Source: Sneathiella sp. (GTDB lineage Bacteria; Pseudomonadota; Alphaproteobacteria; Sneathiellales; Sneathiellaceae). Taken from it: 33,550 nucleotides of DNA. The translations under genes and the position numbers were made by a program. This document shows positions 11,756 through 22,997 of the stretch, in pieces. Location of the stretch: positions 76,032-109,581 of the forward strand of contig NZ_NZMB01000009.1 of the NCBI RefSeq assembly GCF_002694385.1. The letters run 5' to 3'. Numbering within the stretch: position 1 is the stretch's first letter; each line of letters starts with the position of its first letter. The notes below the pieces were generated by a model, which was given only the letters and a program-made list of their open reading frames with translations, made no database searches and was not told the origin of the DNA.

Positions 11756-11922
11756 AATCCTGTCTCTACCATTCATGTCAAAGCGTTGCGTTATAGCATA
11801 TCATGGACGGAACAGGGTTTAAAAACTCTTAAACGGCCTCCCGTTCCTTGGCGCTTTACCTCTGCCCGAACCAGATGTTAAGGATTGGAAGGCAAGCAGC
11901 GGCGGGTATGATTGGAACGGGT

Positions 11923-14900
11923 ATGACGGATCAGGCGAACGGGATGACGGCAGATAAGTGGCAGTTCTGGATCGACCGGGGCGGCACCTTCACCGATCTT
12001 GTTGCCCGGCGGCCGGATGGCGGGCTTGTCACCCATAAACTGCTGAGTGAAAATCCGGAACAATATGAGGATGCCGCCCTTCAGGGCATTCGCGATCTGC
12101 TGGGCGTGACCAAAGGCGACCCCCTCCCCGCAGAGAAAATCGATGCGGTGAAAATGGGCACTACCGTCGCGACAAACGCCCTGCTGGAACGCAAAGGCGA
12201 GCCGCTGCTCCTGGTGACCACAAAGGGCTTTCGGGACGCCCTCCGTATCGGGTATCAGACGCGCCCGAAACTCTTCGCGCTGAATATTGAACTGCCGGAA
12301 ATGCTGTACAGCCGCGTGATCGAGGTGGAAGAGAGGATCGGCGCCCGCGGGGATCTGATCCGGGCCCTTGATGAAGAGGATACCCGCGCCAAGCTTAAGG
12401 CCGCCTTTGATGATGGTCTTCGCGCCTGCGCCATTGCCTTCCTGCATGGTTACCGCTTCACCGATCATGAGAAACGCACGGCAGAGATTGCCCGTGAGAT
12501 CGGCTTTACGCAAGTCTCCACCAGCCACGAGACAAGCCCGCTGATGAAGCTGGTCAGCCGCGGGGATACTACCGTCGTGGATGCCTATCTCTCCCCCATT
12601 CTCCGCCGTTATGTCGATCGGGTGGCGTCAGAACTTGGCGATACGCGGCTGATGTTCATGCAATCGAACGGCGGCCTGACCGATGCCCATTTCTTTCAGG
12701 GCAAGGATGCCATTCTCTCCGGTCCGGCGGGCGGCGTTGTCGGGATGGTGGAAACCAGCGGTCTCGCGGGGTTTGAGAAGGTGATCGGCTTCGATATGGG
12801 CGGCACCTCCACCGATGTGTCGCACTATGCCGGGGGTTATGAGCGCACATTTGAGACGGAAGTCGCCGGGGTGCGCATGCGCGCGCCCATGATGCTGATC
12901 CATACGGTGGCGGCGGGCGGCGGCTCCATCCTGCATTTCGATGGGGCGCGTTATCGCGTCGGGCCGGACAGCGCCGGGGCGGATCCAGGCCCCGCCTGCT
13001 ACCGCAAAGGCGGACCGCTGACCGTCACCGACTGTAACGTCATGCTCGGCAAGCTCTCCCCCGATTATTTCCCACCCGTCTTCGGCCCTGATGCAGATGA
13101 ACCGCTGGATGTGGAGATTGTCCGCGAAAAATTCCGCGCCCTTGCGGATAAAATCAATGCCGCCACCGGCGACAATCGCAGCCCCGAGGAAGTGGCGCGC
13201 GGCTTTCTGTTCATCGCCGTGGAGAATATGGCCAATGCCATCAAGAAGATTTCCACCCAGCGGGGCTATGATGTCTCTGAATATGTGCTGACCTCCTTCG
13301 GCGGCGCGGGCGGACAGCATGCCTGCCTGGTCGCCGACAGCCTCGGCATGAAAAAAATCCTGCTGCATCCCTTTGCCGGGGTTCTCTCCGCCTTTGGTAT
13401 GGGGCTGGCCGATCTGCGGGTCATGAAGGAGCAGGCACTGGAAATAGCCTATGAAAACAAATCACTGGAAACTATTTCAAAGGCACTGGATGACTTAGCG
13501 CATAACGGGGAGGAAGAAATGCGGGCGCAGGGAATGCCCGCAAGCCGCATGTCAACAATCCGCCGCCTGCATGTCAAATATCAGGGATCCGACACCGCCA
13601 TGATCGTAGAGGATGGCGCACCGGAGGAGGTCATCCCGGCTTTTGAAGCCACCCACCGCCAGCGGTTTGGTTTCACCACACCGGAAAAGCCGATGATTGT
13701 CGAAGCTGTCGCTGTGGAAGTCATTGGCGCCGCCGAAAAGAACAACGAGGTCACTCCCCGGCCGCAAGATGACAATCTGAAATCGCTTTCCAGCAAATCC
13801 GTTTACATGGAAGGAAAATGGCAGGACTGTCCCTTTTATAACCGGGATAATATGCCACTGGATACTAGGGTTGGCGGCCCTGCCGTGATTGTCGAGGCAA
13901 CCGGCACAACGGTTATAGAACCCGGCTGGCAGGCCGAGAAAACGCTGCGCGGTGACCTGCTGCTGAGCCGTGTCGTCCCCCTCAAACGCGATATGGCTAT
14001 CGGCACGGAAGTCGATCCTGTCATGCTGGAGATATTCAACAATCTCTTTATGAATGTGGCGGAGCAAATGGGCACCGTCCTTGAAAAGACTGCCTATTCC
14101 GTCAATATCAAGGAACGGCTTGATTTTTCCTGCGCGGTGTTCGATCTGAACGGTGATCTTATCGCCAATGCCCCGCATATGCCGGTGCATCTCGGCTCGA
14201 TGTCGGAGAGTATCAAGGCCGTCATTGCCAAACATGGCAGCACCATGAAGGCAGGCGATGTCTTTGCCTTGAACGCCCCCTATAACGGCGGCACTCACCT
14301 GCCCGATGTCACGGTGATCACGCCGGTTTTTGACACCGCCGGCAACGACGTTCTCTTTTATGTGGCAAGCCGTGGGCATCATGCCGACATCGGCGGCACG
14401 ACACCCGGTTCCATGCCGCCGGATAGTCGCACGGTGGCGGAGGAAGGCGTCATTCTGGATAATGTGCTGCTGGTCGATGGCGGCCAGCTGTGCGAGGCGG
14501 AAATCGTCAATATCCTGAAATCCGGACCCTATCCGTCCCGCAATACGGATCAGAATATGGCCGATCTGAAGGCGCAGATCGCCTCCTGTGAAAAAGGCAT
14601 ACAGGAGTTGCGCCGCATGGTCGATCATTTCGGTCTGGAGGTGGTGCATGCCTATATGGGCCATGTTCAGGACAATGCCGAAGAATCCGTCCGCCGGGTT
14701 CTGGATGTCCTGAAAAGTGGATCCTTCACCTATGCCATGGATGACGGATATAAGATTTCCGTCAACATCACCATTGATAAGAACGCCCGCAGCGCCTGTA
14801 TCGACTTCACAGGCAGCAGCGGCCAGCATCCGACCAATTATAACGCCCCGCGCGCTGTCACGACCGCGGCAGTGCTTTATGTATTTCGCTGCCTTGTCGA

Positions 14901-15537
14901 TGGGGATATTCCCCTCAACGCCGGGTGTCTCAAACCGCTTGAAATCATTGTGCCGGAAAAGTCCCTGCTGTCCCCGGAATATCCGGCGGCCGTGGTGGCG
15001 GGCAATGTGGAGACATCTCAATGCATTACGGATTGCCTGTTTGGCGCACTGGAAGTGATGGCCGCCGCGCAAGGCACCATGAACAACTTCACCTTCGGGA
15101 ATGACCGCTATCAATATTATGAAACCATCTGCGGCGGCTCCGGCGCCGGACCTGACTTTGACGGCACCGATGCGGTCCATACCCATATGACCAATTCCCG
15201 CCTCACAGACCCGGAGGTGCTGGAATGGCGCTTTCCTGTGCTGCTGGAGAGTTTTGAAATTCGTCATCGATCAGGCGGTAAGGGCCATCATCGGGGCGGC
15301 GCGGGCACGCTGCGCAAGATCCGTTTTCTGGAACCGATGACCGCATCGCTACTCTCCAGTCATCGCCGGATCCCACCCTTCGGGCTGCAAGGTGGTGATG
15401 ACGGGGAAGTCGGCAAGCAGTGGGTCGAACGGCATGATGGCCAGAGGGAGGAACTGGAAGCCCGTTCCTCCACCGAAATGGCGGCAGGCGATCTCTATGT
15501 CATCCAGACACCAACGGGCGGCGGGTACGGGAAATAG
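11923..15537 (+). CDS. 5-oxoprolinase / hydantoinase A-B fusion (ATP-hydrolysing)
   Basis: A 1204-residue protein joining two domains. The N-terminal half is HyuA-like: DRGGTFTDLVA near the start, the ATP-binding VIGFDMGGTSTDVSHY block, and TSFGGAGGQHACLVADSLGM. The C-terminal half is HyuB-like: VDPVMLEIFNNLFMNVAEQMG, then NAPHMPVHLGSM, and ending in GTPTGGGYGK-like residues. Fused forms of about 1200-1290 residues are typical of 5-oxoprolinase, which opens 5-oxo-L-proline to glutamate using ATP. Hydantoinase activity remains possible because motifs do not fix the substrate. The start is uncertain: the ATG at 11923 has GGAA five bases upstream, while 11944 or 11908 are also in frame. It stands alone, divergent from rfbA with 167 bp between starts and convergent with metH. 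A link to glutathione turnover is my inference. Confidence 0.9.
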   Translation: MTDQANGMTADKWQFWIDRGGTFTDLVARRPDGGLVTHKLLSENPEQYEDAALQGIRDLLGVTKGDPLPAEKIDAVKMGTTVATNALLERKGEPLLLVTTKGFRDALRIGYQTRPKLFALNIELPEMLYSRVIEVEERIGARGDLIRALDEEDTRAKLKAAFDDGLRACAIAFLHGYRFTDHEKRTAEIAREIGFTQVSTSHETSPLMKLVSRGDTTVVDAYLSPILRRYVDRVASELGDTRLMFMQSNGGLTDAHFFQGKDAILSGPAGGVVGMVETSGLAGFEKVIGFDMGGTSTDVSHYAGGYERTFETEVAGVRMRAPMMLIHTVAAGGGSILHFDGARYRVGPDSAGADPGPACYRKGGPLTVTDCNVMLGKLSPDYFPPVFGPDADEPLDVEIVREKFRALADKINAATGDNRSPEEVARGFLFIAVENMANAIKKISTQRGYDVSEYVLTSFGGAGGQHACLVADSLGMKKILLHPFAGVLSAFGMGLADLRVMKEQALEIAYENKSLETISKALDDLAHNGEEEMRAQGMPASRMSTIRRLHVKYQGSDTAMIVEDGAPEEVIPAFEATHRQRFGFTTPEKPMIVEAVAVEVIGAAEKNNEVTPRPQDDNLKSLSSKSVYMEGKWQDCPFYNRDNMPLDTRVGGPAVIVEATGTTVIEPGWQAEKTLRGDLLLSRVVPLKRDMAIGTEVDPVMLEIFNNLFMNVAEQMGTVLEKTAYSVNIKERLDFSCAVFDLNGDLIANAPHMPVHLGSMSESIKAVIAKHGSTMKAGDVFALNAPYNGGTHLPDVTVITPVFDTAGNDVLFYVASRGHHADIGGTTPGSMPPDSRTVAEEGVILDNVLLVDGGQLCEAEIVNILKSGPYPSRNTDQNMADLKAQIASCEKGIQELRRMVDHFGLEVVHAYMGHVQDNAEESVRRVLDVLKSGSFTYAMDDGYKISVNITIDKNARSACIDFTGSSGQHPTNYNAPRAVTTAAVLYVFRCLVDGDIPLNAGCLKPLEIIVPEKSLLSPEYPAAVVAGNVETSQCITDCLFGALEVMAAAQGTMNNFTFGNDRYQYYETICGGSGAGPDFDGTDAVHTHMTNSRLTDPEVLEWRFPVLLESFEIRHRSGGKGHHRGGAGTLRKIRFLEPMTASLLSSHRRIPPFGLQGGDDGEVGKQWVERHDGQREELEARSSTEMAAGDLYVIQTPTGGGYGK

Positions 15538-15578: not shown

Positions 15579-15585
<7 letters not shown>
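15551..15585. terminator. Branched hairpin between convergent oxoprolinase and metH genes
   Basis: AAGTTAGC (15551-15558) pairs with GCTAACTT (15578-15585). Inside the loop, CTTCA and TGAAG can form a second short stem that competes for one base. There is no long T-run on either side, so it is not a textbook intrinsic terminator. Its place between two convergent stops, overlapping the last codons of metH, still suggests a role in ending transcription or protecting 3' ends. Confidence 0.4.
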
Positions 15586-19283
<3,698 letters not shown>

Positions 19284-19300
19284 TGGTGTCCCCGCCTGCA

Positions 19301-19314
19301 AATATAAATATATT
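19301..19314. promoter_or_regulatory. AT-rich palindrome between metF and metH
   Basis: AATATA, two A bases, TATATT: a perfect 14-bp palindrome in the 38-base gap between metF and the metH GTG. It contains ATATAA, also present in the inverted repeat upstream of the ArsR-methyltransferase gene. It could be an internal operator or promoter element for metH, but chance AT-richness is a fair alternative. Confidence 0.3.
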
Positions 19315-19321
19315 AGTCTGT

Positions 19322-20242
19322 TCAGATGCTTTTTTTATGTCGTATTCCAAGTGTATGACACACGGAATAGACAAGGTCAGCCCGGTTGAGCGTATAAAAA
19401 TGGAACTGCCCCACTCCGGCCCGCTGTAACCGCAGGCATTGCTCCGTTGCCACCATCGCAGCGACCATATTGCGTGTTGCCGGATCCTCATCCAGATCCT
19501 CGAACAGATGGGCGAGCCAGGCCGGAACCTGCGCCCCGCACTGTTTGCTGAACTGGCGGACCTTGGCGAAGTTCGTAACCGGCAGAATGCCCGGAACAAT
19601 CGGAATGGTGATATCATGGGCAAGCGCCCGATCAACAAAGCGCAGATAGGTTTCCGGATCGAAAAAGAACTGTGTGATCGCCCGCGTCGCCCCGGCGTCC
19701 ATTTTACGTTTCAGATACTCGATATCGGCCAGGCTGGATTTCGCCTCGGGGTGAATTTCGGGATAGCAGCCGACAGAAATTTCGAAATCATGTCGCTTTT
19801 TCAGAAATTCGATGAGTTCCACCGATCCGGTGAAGCCGTCTGGGTGCGGCGTAAAATGGCCCTGTCCTTCCGGCGGATCGCCGCGCAGTGCCACAATATG
19901 TCGAATGCCACTTTCCCAGTAAAGATCGGCAATCTCCCCGATTTCGCCCTTGCTGGCCCCGACACAAGTCAGATGCGCCGCAGGCTCCAGCTCTGTTTCA
20001 TTCCGGATGCGGCTAACCAGGGCATGGGTGCGCTCCCGCGTTGAGCCACCTGCCCCATAGGTGACCGAAACAAAGCGCGGGCCCAGCGGTGTCAGGCGCG
20101 TCAATGCCTCCCAATGCTTTTCGGCAAGCTTGTCCGTCGTTGGCGGGAAAAACTCAAAGGAAACCTCCACCTTGCTGCGCCCGCCCGCAGCGGACAGCAG
20201 GCCTGCTGTGGCGGCGCTCTCGGAAATTCCAGACATAATCAT
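19322..20242 (-). CDS. metF: Methylenetetrahydrofolate reductase
   Basis: A 306-residue flavoprotein with a TIM-barrel MTHFR fold. It shows SFEFFPPTT near the start with the active-site Glu, [48 protein letters not shown] and ITQFFFD, in the usual family order. It reduces 5,10-methylene-THF to 5-methyl-THF, which MetH, encoded just downstream, then uses. The start ATG at 20242 overlaps the stop of the regulator gene (ATGA) and has AAGGAG about ten bases upstream; a longer reading frame to 20293 lies inside the regulator gene and is not used. Operon membership with the regulator and metH is strong from the overlap and spacing. Confidence 0.96.
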
Positions 20243-21198
20243 GACGCGATGGCTCCTTTTGACTGACGGCGCACGGCGGGCGCGGCCGTCCAAATATTGA
20301 CATTGAGCGGGCTACCTTCCAGTACCCGAAAATCTTTTGACTGCAATCCGGCCTCTTCACAAATACGCCAGACGGCATTTTCCGAAAACCCCTTATGGAG
20401 ATGGGCATGATCCGTGCACAGGCTGTCCAGTTCATGGGGCGCAAAATCAACAACGGCAAGAAGGCCGCCGGGGCGCAGCAGACGGGCAGCCTCGCGGATA
20501 GCAGCCGCCGGATCCTCCGCATAATGCAGCACCTGATGGATAACGATGGCGTCTTGTGACTGGCTGGCAAAAGGCAGATTATACATATCGGCAAGGCGGA
20601 CCTGGCAGTTACGCAAGCCCGCGTCATCAATGGCCGTGCGGGCAAAGGACAGCATCTCCCGGCTGGTGTCCACGCCAATGGCATGGGCGACTGTCGGACC
20701 GAACAATTCCAGCATCCGCCCCGTTCCCGTGCCGATATCAAGAAAATCGGTAATCTCGGTGCTGCCCATCAGTTCCAGCAATGCTGCCTCCACCGCCTCC
20801 TCCGGCACATGCAGCGAGCGAATTTGCCGCCAGTGAGCCGCATTTTCCCGGAAATATTCTTCTGCCGCGATGGTCCGGGCCTTTTTGACCGCTTCCAGCC
20901 GCTCCAGATCGCGCGAGACAGTCGCATCCGTCTCCGGCACCAGATCAACAAGGGTACGCGCCAGCAGCGCTGCCTCGCTCTTGGCGGACAAACGGTAATA
21001 AACCCAACTTCCTTCCTGATAGCGATCCAGCAATCCCGCCTCGCACAGCAGTTTCAGATGACGGGAAACACGGGGTTGACTCTGCCCCAGTATCTGGGTC
21101 AGTTCACTGACTGTCAGCTCGGAATGGCCACAGAGAACCAACAGCCGAAGCCGTGTTTCCTCCCCCGCCGCACGCAGGCCTTGCAGCAAATTTTCCAC
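20239..21198 (-). CDS. ArsR-family regulator fused to SAM-dependent methyltransferase domain
   Basis: A 319-residue protein. Residues 1-90 form an ArsR-type winged helix: ETRLRLLVLC, SELTQILGQSQPRVSRHLKLL as the recognition helix at 32-51, then LLDRYQEGSWVYYRL as the wing. The alpha-3 metal site ELCVC is missing, so it is not a metal sensor of the SmtB/ArsR kind. Residues about 150-270 form a class I methyltransferase domain: FLDIGTGTGRMLE (motif I, 152-164), then IGVDTSREMLSFAR, QDAIVIHQVLHYAEDP and LLRPGGLLAVVDF. Placed ahead of metF and metH with a 4-base overlap, it probably regulates methionine synthesis in response to SAM or SAH, like the ArsR-family regulator SahR. Whether the methyltransferase domain is catalytic or only a ligand sensor cannot be told from sequence. 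Confidence 0.9.
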   Translation of the reverse strand: MENLLQGLRAAGEETRLRLLVLCGHSELTVSELTQILGQSQPRVSRHLKLLCEAGLLDRYQEGSWVYYRLSAKSEAALLARTLVDLVPETDATVSRDLERLEAVKKARTIAAEEYFRENAAHWRQIRSLHVPEEAVEAALLELMGSTEITDFLDIGTGTGRMLELFGPTVAHAIGVDTSREMLSFARTAIDDAGLRNCQVRLADMYNLPFASQSQDAIVIHQVLHYAEDPAAAIREAARLLRPGGLLAVVDFAPHELDSLCTDHAHLHKGFSENAVWRICEEAGLQSKDFRVLEGSPLNVNIWTAAPAVRRQSKGAIAS

Positions 21199-21513
21199 AG
21201 CAACCTCAAATAAATCATTAATTAAAACGATATAAACATATCCTTATATCTTTGTACAGGATTAATATCGACCGGACAGCGACTTTTTCGCCACACCACG
21301 CAAGGATTCTGAATGGCCTGAAAATCACCGACTCGCCATACCTTGTACCTTGTGCTAGGTACGTACACTAGTTGTTCCCTTCGCAGGTGCTTGATTTTGC
21401 TTCAAAACTTGGCGGAGAGAAAGAAAATCGGGGGTTAAAGGCTTTGGTAACCGTTATTGAATAGAGTGGCAGTCATTTCCGGTCGCGCAGGTTACTAAGG
21501 TGGAAAAGAAAAA
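21199..21513. other. Divergent intergenic region between the met operon and mlaA
   Basis: A 315-base gap with no coding sequence that I can support. The left end, next to the ArsR-methyltransferase gene, is AT-rich and carries an inverted repeat listed separately. The middle has a near-palindrome around GTACGTAC at about 21357-21370. The right end carries the mlaA ribosome site (AAGGTGG, 10 bases ahead of the ATG) but no promoter hexamers I trust. No riboswitch-like fold was recognised. Confidence 0.6.
21229..21250. promoter_or_regulatory. Inverted repeat upstream of the ArsR-methyltransferase/metF/metH operon
   Basis: GATATAA (21229-21235) and TTATATC (21244-21250) are exact reverse complements separated by 8 bases, 31 bases upstream of the regulator's ATG. 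The size and symmetry suit a dimeric ArsR-family protein, so autoregulation by the encoded regulator is the simplest reading. The assignment is an inference; no promoter boxes are clear enough to place it relative to the transcription start. Confidence 0.5.
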
Positions 21514-22311
21514 ATGGGATTGCGTATAAAATCGACATCATTAAAAGCCGGTTTGCTGGCAACGGCGCTGATGGTTAGCGTCAGCGGTTGTGCCACGCCG
21601 GAACAGAAGGAAAGCAAGGCGGCAGTGGTCATGTATGACGAAGTCTACGACCCGCTGGAGCCGATGAACCGCTATTTCTTTGATGTGAATTACGCGCTTG
21701 ACGCATTGCTGCTGCGCCCTGTTGCCGAAATCTATCGCGGCGTTCTTCCCGATGCCGCGCAGGACAGTGTTCGCAATTTCATCACCAACCTGTGGCAGCC
21801 CGTTTATTTTATCAATAATGTCCTTCAGGGCGAGATGGATCGCGCCGGTGATAACATGGGCGCCTTCTTTACCAACACCTTCCTTGGAGTTGGCGGCCTG
21901 TTTGATGTGGCAAAGCTGGACACCCAGCCCGAAGATATGGGCCAGACGCTGGCCGTTTGGGGCGTGGAGGAAGGTCCTTATCTGGTGTTGCCGGTCTTTG
22001 GACCGCGGACAACGCGCGCCGCCGGCGGCGCTGTGGTTGATTATTTCCTCAATCCGGTGAATTACGTCGCGCGTGAACATGACTGGGATTATGTACCGGT
22101 CGCACTGTTTGCCGCAGATGGCATTGACGCGCGATCCCGCTCCATTGAGGCGCTGGATGAAATCGAGCGGACCTCTATTGATTTCTATGCAGCTATCCGC
22201 AGCCTCTATCGACAGAATCGTAATAACATGATTCTCAACGGTGCCAGCAATTCGACACAATTGCCGGATATGTCATTTGAGGATGATGACAAGCCGGTGC
22301 AGAAAAACTAG
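21514..22311 (+). CDS. mlaA: MlaA (VacJ) outer-membrane lipoprotein
   Basis: A 265-residue lipoprotein. A basic N-terminus and hydrophobic helix end in the lipobox VSGC, with Cys26 as the lipidation site. The mature part shows the family hallmarks YDPLEPMNRYFFDVNYALD, NFITNLWQPVYFINNVLQG, TNTFLGVGGLFDVA, and GVEEGPYLVLPVFGPRTTRAAGG. MlaA sits in the outer membrane with a porin and removes phospholipids from the outer leaflet, passing them to MlaC. The ATG has an AAGGTGG site. mlaC follows after 62 bases on the same strand, which supports the role. The MlaFEDB inner-membrane transporter is not in this window. The C-terminal tail of about 40 residues is polar and of low conservation. Confidence 0.95.
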   Translation: MGLRIKSTSLKAGLLATALMVSVSGCATPEQKESKAAVVMYDEVYDPLEPMNRYFFDVNYALDALLLRPVAEIYRGVLPDAAQDSVRNFITNLWQPVYFINNVLQGEMDRAGDNMGAFFTNTFLGVGGLFDVAKLDTQPEDMGQTLAVWGVEEGPYLVLPVFGPRTTRAAGGAVVDYFLNPVNYVAREHDWDYVPVALFAADGIDARSRSIEALDEIERTSIDFYAAIRSLYRQNRNNMILNGASNSTQLPDMSFEDDDKPVQKN

Positions 22312-22373
22312 CTTCACCGGACTAATTTAATCATTATATATTTTGAATATCCAAACCCACTGGGGGTGTTGAT

Positions 22374-22997
22374 ATGATGTTGACCAGACGTATGTTTAGC
22401 GGGCTGATTGCCGCCGCGGCGCTTATAACCGCCCTTACGGGAGCGCCTGCCCTAGCCGCAGACAAGGAACAGGCCGCCCTCGCCCTTGTTAAAGGCATTG
22501 GCGAAAAGGCCGTTGCCACCCTCTCCGATACATCCCTCAGCGATGAACAGAAACAGGAACGTTTCGAACAGTTTCTGGACAGCAGCTTTGATATGGAGCG
22601 GATCGGCCGTTTCGTGCTCGGCCAGCACTGGCGGAGCGCAAGCGAGGAACAGCGCAGCGAATTTCTGAAAGTTTTCCGCGACTATATGGTTTCCAGCTAT
22701 GCCGACAAGATCGGCTCCTATTCCGGTGAAAATCTGGAATTCAAGGAAACAACCTCTCTCAATGATAAGGAGTCGCTGGTCAATTCGCTGATTGTCCGGC
22801 CGAACGGCCCGCCCGTAAAGCTCGACTGGCGTGTGCGTCAGGGAGATAATGGTGAAAAAATTGTCGATGTTATCGTTGAGGGTATCAGCATGGCGCAGAC
22901 ACAGCGCTCTGATTTCTCCTCCGTTGTCAACAAGCCTGGTGTCGGCGTGGAAGGTCTGATCACAAGGTTGAAGGAACAGACCGGCTCAGCAAGCTGA
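22374..22997 (+). CDS. mlaC: MlaC periplasmic phospholipid-binding protein
   Basis: A 207-residue exported protein of the MlaC/Ttg2D family. A signal sequence (about 1-28, ending PALAAD) begins with TRRMFSG followed by an alanine-rich hydrophobic core, a pattern resembling a twin-arginine signal. The mature protein has FDMERIGRFVLGQHWRSASEEQRSEFLKVFRDYMVSSYADKI-type helices and a sheet region with VKLDWRVRQG and KIVDVIVEGISM, all typical of MlaC. It shuttles phospholipids between MlaA at the outer membrane and the MlaFEDB complex at the inner membrane. A GGGGG-containing ribosome site lies 8 bases upstream of tandem ATG codons. It ends 40 bases before a strong terminator. Confidence 0.93.
   Translation: MMLTRRMFSGLIAAAALITALTGAPALAADKEQAALALVKGIGEKAVATLSDTSLSDEQKQERFEQFLDSSFDMERIGRFVLGQHWRSASEEQRSEFLKVFRDYMVSSYADKIGSYSGENLEFKETTSLNDKESLVNSLIVRPNGPPVKLDWRVRQGDNGEKIVDVIVEGISMAQTQRSDFSSVVNKPGVGVEGLITRLKEQTGSAS

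Follow-up and report, generated by a model that had tools for sequence, protein, structure and literature searches.

A SahR-type regulator and its predicted operators upstream of sahR-metF-metH and ahcY in Sneathiella

Which signal would a transcriptional regulator read when its sensor has the fold of a methyltransferase, and which genes would it control? The question is raised by a gene on the minus strand (positions 20239-21198) of a 33,550-nucleotide (nt) stretch of Sneathiella sp. DNA, hereafter the window (contig NZ_NZMB01000009.1, 76,032-109,581, assembly GCF_002694385.1; the genome comprises 3.6 Mb in 30 contigs). A first-pass annotation of this DNA had described the gene as an ArsR-methyltransferase fusion that lacks the metal-binding ELCVC motif, keeps the GTGTG loop that binds S-adenosylmethionine (SAM), stands downstream of a perfect inverted repeat offered as operator candidate and leads metF and metH. 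It had further proposed that the regulator reads the ratio of SAM to S-adenosylhomocysteine (SAH), and had suggested a comparison with SahR. The comparison was apt, as the window protein is an ordinary member of the SahR family and the interpretation, correct in kind, was already published (SahR, 2014). We consider it highly likely, on the basis of sequence comparison and of the literature on relatives, that the gene encodes SahR and that this protein binds palindromes upstream of sahR and ahcY and is released from them by SAH, which would free the expression of ahcY, metF and metH.

The open reading frame (ORF) of sahR encodes 319 amino acids (aa) from a GTG start, and profile searches and a predicted structure divide the protein into two fused parts, a winged-helix domain of the ArsR type and a SAM-dependent methyltransferase fold of class I. 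Pfam HTH_5 (ArsR) matches residues 14-58 (E = 1.1e-10) and Methyltransf_11 matches residues 153-248 (E = 5.8e-25). The winged-helix domain is shared with the ArsR/SmtB metalloregulators, the NCBIfam model HTH_metalloreg (NF033788) matching the protein at 76.9 bits. In the metal sensors of that family, however, ELCVC is the metal-binding cysteine motif, and the window protein reads ELTVSEL at this position; a CxC at residues 27-33 was found in none of 91 distinct homologous sequences (taken from 104 loci, some organisms being present in two collections), so that the absence of these cysteines and the additional methyltransferase domain both set SahR apart from the metalloregulators. Motif I of the methyltransferase domain reads FLDIGTGTGR, and its GTGTGR is invariant in the 91 sequences, as are D154, G156-R161, G175, D177 (presumably the acidic ribose-binding residue of the methyltransferase fold) and M182, with D204 kept in 90 of them. 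Outside the usual SAM motifs, five histidines (H221, H225, H255, H264 and H266) are kept in at least 88 of the 91 and possibly belong to a closed substrate pocket or a metal site. The predicted structure has a mean predicted local distance difference test score (pLDDT) of 83 and a predicted template-modelling score (pTM) of 0.60. Residues 133-310 of the model match the methyltransferases BH2331 (Z 23.5, root-mean-square deviation (rmsd) 1.7) and YcgJ (Z 23.2, rmsd 1.8), and Foldseek ranks highest methyltransferases that carry an extra N-terminal domain (SgvM, Rv2258c). Comparison of the whole model with winged-helix methyltransferases left the domain arrangement unmatched (rmsd about 16-20), and we therefore relied only on the methyltransferase domain of the model.

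The gene leads an arrangement in which sahR, metF and metH follow one another on the minus strand. metF (19322-20242; methylenetetrahydrofolate reductase, MTHFR profile) begins with an ATG that overlaps the sahR stop codon as ATGA, and metH (15579-19301; cobalamin-dependent methionine synthase) has 1240 aa as listed and a TTG start. Upstream of sahR, the repeat GATATAA/TTATATC is exact at 21229-21250, and a repeat finder widens its arms to 13 nt at 85%; the first-pass description of fusion, motifs, gene order and repeat thus held throughout. Read on the gene strand (minus), the repeat is GATATAAGGATATGTTTATATC, with a conserved 20-bp core at 21230-21249, and comparison among relatives indicates that it is very probably the operator of SahR. 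When up to 2 mismatches are allowed, ATATAANNATNTNTTTATAT matches the window at a single place, whereas 100 shuffles gave 0.00 matches on average; because this pattern was derived from the window site and its relatives, recurrence of the site at ahcY and at distant sahR genes provides the more independent tests. A shorter repeat, GATAT-N4-ATATC (21229-21242), was dropped as operator since the upstream regions of the family conserve the wider GATATAA/TTATATC. A candidate -35 box, TGTACA, lies at 21253-21258 (minus strand), and a candidate -10 box, TATATC, follows 18 nt after it at 21229-21234 (minus strand), inside the operator. A consensus promoter scan at sahR gave no match, and both boxes are proposed from conservation: in 18 of 22 family members, TGTAC and the 20-bp core that follows it are separated by 4 nt. 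Between operator and gene, GAGG at 21204-21207 (minus strand) reads as a candidate ribosome-binding site before the GTG start. The predicted operator lies between the candidate -35 box and the start codon, as a repressor site should.

Recurrence was examined in a family sample of 25 genomes from two genera. A sahR match (E of 1e-40 or better) was present in 22 of these genomes, the window's own genome having one such match, and the three genomes without a match have completeness values of 56%, 66% and 94%. The best named relatives of the window protein are from Sneathiella species, with up to 82% identity. The 20-bp core was found upstream of sahR in each of the 22 genomes that yielded the gene, and a close match to it upstream of ahcY in each of the 24 genomes having ahcY (loci L030-L053; predicted operator at G000:C1:400751-400770). 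The targets first proposed, metF and metH, therefore stand, but the list was incomplete, since a second operator lies at ahcY, in another part of the genome. When the 25 genomes were searched with ATATAANNATNTNTTTATAT and up to 1 mismatch, the sahR and ahcY sites were returned together with 8 extra sites in 7 genomes, and the reversed pattern, used as control, gave 0 or 1 per strand in each genome. One more site in the window's genome, at C23:181897, fits the pattern with 0 mismatches and was taken as a chance occurrence: the nearest ORF start (151 aa) is about 130 nt away, and the largest ORF nearby, which begins MITSLAPAKINLF and which we take to be ispE-like, does not have its start at the site.

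The same operator is found well beyond close relatives. A weight matrix trained on 46 family operator sites was applied to 80 named sahR loci, of which 13 have upstream DNA identical to training loci and 66, at 64% identity or less, have no upstream DNA in common with the 46 training sites. By this matrix, 78 of the 80 loci have an operator before sahR (lowest accepted score 19.9 bits, best reversed control 13.4), as do 64 of the 66 distant ones, and this recurrence, together with that at sahR and ahcY within the family, supports the repeat as operator. metF lies 3' of sahR in 78 of the 80 loci, the sequence of the other two stopping within 90 nt of sahR. A tblastn search of plasmid records, large rhizobial replicons included, yielded 11 homologues with 37-50% identity. 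The coding sequence of the Sinorhizobium meliloti homologue (LZK74_28045, locus L156; 48% identity, 96% cover) is 1023 bp long, as is Ensifer aridi sahR according to PMC8877191, and lies directly before metF, with the operator ACATAAACATATCTTTATGT 36 nt before its start codon (26.8 bits). That of Sphingomonas parapaucimobilis (locus L157) precedes metF, a homocysteine methyltransferase and metH, with an operator 28 nt before its start codon (36.7 bits). Both homologues have the ArsR and the methyltransferase domain, and the same 20-bp palindrome also occurs upstream in Azospirillum loci.

The 2014 study of SahR is said to include in its definition a methylase-like sensor part beside ArsR, and the window protein has both parts. 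According to later papers that cite the 2014 report (PMC4239095, PMC8877191), SahR belongs to the ArsR family, responds to SAH and regulates the SAM cycle. Its site is a 20-bp palindrome, its core targets are sahR, ahcY, metH, metF and metK, and 7 of 9 Rhodospirillales genomes contain it (PMC4239095). The palindrome upstream of the window's sahR agrees with the published operator in its length of 20 bp, and sahR, ahcY, metH and metF are predicted targets as judged by operator and gene order only. Pairwise identity and shared context tie the protein to SahR of Rhizobiales through S. meliloti LZK74_28045, and SahR of Alphaproteobacteria in general (Ensifer/Sinorhizobium; Rhodospirillales such as Azospirillum) has the same ArsR and methyltransferase domains and the same sahR-metF order; the window's family differs from these in having no metK operator. 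Likened by description only, SahR of Desulfovibrio alaskensis is also of the ArsR family, SAH-responsive and directed at SAM-cycle genes (PMC4239095). The same source describes SamR of Xanthomonadales, a distant SahR homologue that lies beside metH genes, as is the case here, but recognizes a 24-bp motif and has metK in its regulon without other SAM-cycle genes, a composition that was argued to indicate SAM as the effector (PMC4239095). The window's family presents the opposite composition, with metK outside and the other SAM-cycle genes inside. Our search of the literature on Sneathiella and methionine returned none on this regulator by title.

In the mechanism that we propose, SahR would act as a dimer, as its ArsR fold and palindromic site suggest, and would bind the palindrome at 21230-21249 inside the promoter of sahR-metF-metH and the second site upstream of ahcY. 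Accumulating SAH would then fill the methyltransferase-like pocket and take SahR off the DNA, allowing ahcY, for the hydrolysis of SAH, and metF and metH, for the remethylation of homocysteine, to be made. Repression and the effector are taken here from work on relatives, in which SAH is given as the effector (PMC4239095, PMC8877191) and SahR as a repressor, the sahR promoter being most active in an E. aridi sahR deletion (PMC8877191). As far as can be judged from operator positions, the regulon looks small, comprising sahR-metF-metH and ahcY and leaving metK outside. This choice of targets fits the sensing of SAH, as ahcY removes SAH and metF and metH remethylate the homocysteine. With ahcY inside and metK outside, the reverse of SamR, the argument made in PMC4239095 favours SAH over SAM as the ligand.

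The same evidence bears on what the sensor would do with SAM. Were SAM and SAH to compete for the pocket and to shift DNA affinity in opposite directions, the regulator would read the SAM/SAH ratio, as first proposed; the invariance of D154, G156-R161 and D177 in all 91 sequences means that the pocket could take either ligand, but the published work names SAH as effector (PMC4239095, PMC8877191) and metK, the expected target of a SAM sensor, has no operator while ahcY has one. We thus regard ratio sensing as quite unlikely, and this part of the first-pass annotation found no support. It is very improbable that the methyltransferase domain has kept its catalytic activity, which would make the protein a bifunctional enzyme and regulator: its SAM-binding motifs are intact and its nearest folds are the methyltransferases named above (BH2331 and YcgJ by Z score, SgvM and Rv2258c by Foldseek), yet sensing needs an intact pocket just as much and the neighbouring genes suggest no substrate or pathway.

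The sign of control at ahcY calls for separate consideration. In all 24 family regions a conserved, predicted promoter of the form TTG(A/C)NN-N16/17-TATA-like begins 3-6 nt downstream of the ahcY operator, which abuts the -35 box from its upstream side. A pure repressor would not usually be placed there, and the position would suit activation as well as repression by exclusion. SahR could therefore repress its own operon but activate ahcY, where the operator does not cover the promoter, although we think this unlikely, given that PMC8877191 calls SahR a repressor and that a protein abutting the -35 box can also exclude sigma or the alpha subunit of the polymerase. Outside the family, where we took the best-matching 28 of the 93 genomes with ahcY among 114 genomes of the class searched, a site above 15 bits was found at 14 of the 28 loci. 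Of the regions with a site, 4 of 14 carry a similar promoter according to a script and a few more have TTG directly after the site when inspected by eye, which agrees with the arrangement in the family, but 10 of the 14 predicted promoter regions are unmatched by the script's pattern.

Several observations weigh against the reading of SahR as an SAH-released repressor of both sahR-metF-metH and ahcY. No operator was found at two of the 80 named sahR loci (L101 and L117), half of the best-matching outside-family ahcY loci (14 of 28) have no site above 15 bits, and activation would also be possible from the position of the ahcY operator upstream of the predicted -35 box. In addition, metK, a usual member of the SahR core, has no operator in the 300 nt upstream of it in any of the 22 family metK loci (best score -5.5 bits). 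The missing metK site is not disqualifying for the assignment to SahR, because PMC4239095 presents metK as a usual and not a universal member, a core regulon member being there one that is regulated in more than 70% of genomes and not in all of them.

A different element was found at metK. In 10 of the 22 family metK loci (L057, L059, L060, L061 and L069-L074) a conserved, covarying hairpin element of 57 nt precedes the gene by a short distance (for example, L071:1420-1480, plus strand). The alignment of the ten sequences contains 13 pairs with 99.2% of cells paired, and 3 pairs have changed on both sides, a number reached by 18 of 500 shuffles. The covariation score is 0.214 compared with 0.083 in shuffles (0 of 500 reach it), although kinship alone can lift an alignment above such shuffles, and slid controls remained at or below 0.041; further pair types are at chance level (7 against 5.8 expected; 114 of 500 shuffles). 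Of the 22 metK loci, 16 were scanned with Rfam, all 10 carriers of the element among them, and none matched at gathering score; one of the leaders had no match at E values up to 1 either. A model of the element, applied under strict filters to 385 genomes of the class, identified it in three genomes, all from the same genus as the window. Three weak matches (E 0.002-0.007) came from other genera, none of them beside metK, and were taken as chance, a weak second match in L069 (E 0.42) was disregarded, and the metK locus of the window's own genome (L054) has no match to the model. We regard the element as a candidate cis-regulatory RNA, placed at a gene without a SahR operator. Tentatively, part of Sneathiella might split the control of the SAM cycle, SahR acting on ahcY, metF and metH and a new, unclassified structured leader RNA acting on metK by sensing SAM or a related metabolite and hiding the ribosome-binding site, a scheme that we hold possible if rather doubtful.

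Around the operon, the divergent neighbour mlaA (21514-22311, plus strand; ORF with profile match) is not a predicted target of SahR. It forms with mlaC a pair at 21514-22997 (plus strand) that is transcribed away from sahR, and a divergent mlaA match lies upstream of sahR in 59 of the 80 named loci. Between sahR and mlaA, a block GTGTGGCGAAAAAGTCGC at 21279-21296 (minus strand) recurs, under a loose pattern, in 20 of 22 family loci at a variable spacing from the SahR operator; among the named loci, 12 of the 14 nearest relatives have its core, as does a single locus outside that set. The block is possibly part of the divergent mlaA promoter. On the other side, a 1229-aa ORF in which hydantoinase/oxoprolinase A and B domains are fused (11848-15537, plus strand) converges with metH. 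A scan of the window with Rfam at gathering score gave no match, and hence no sign of a known SAM or SAH riboswitch.

Taking these results together, a proposal made from raw sequence alone came close to a published regulator. The SahR regulon predicted here is compact, with two main operators per genome, and would be suited to a quantitative test of SAH sensing. The sign of ahcY control and the metK leader RNA without an Rfam match would matter more, if true.
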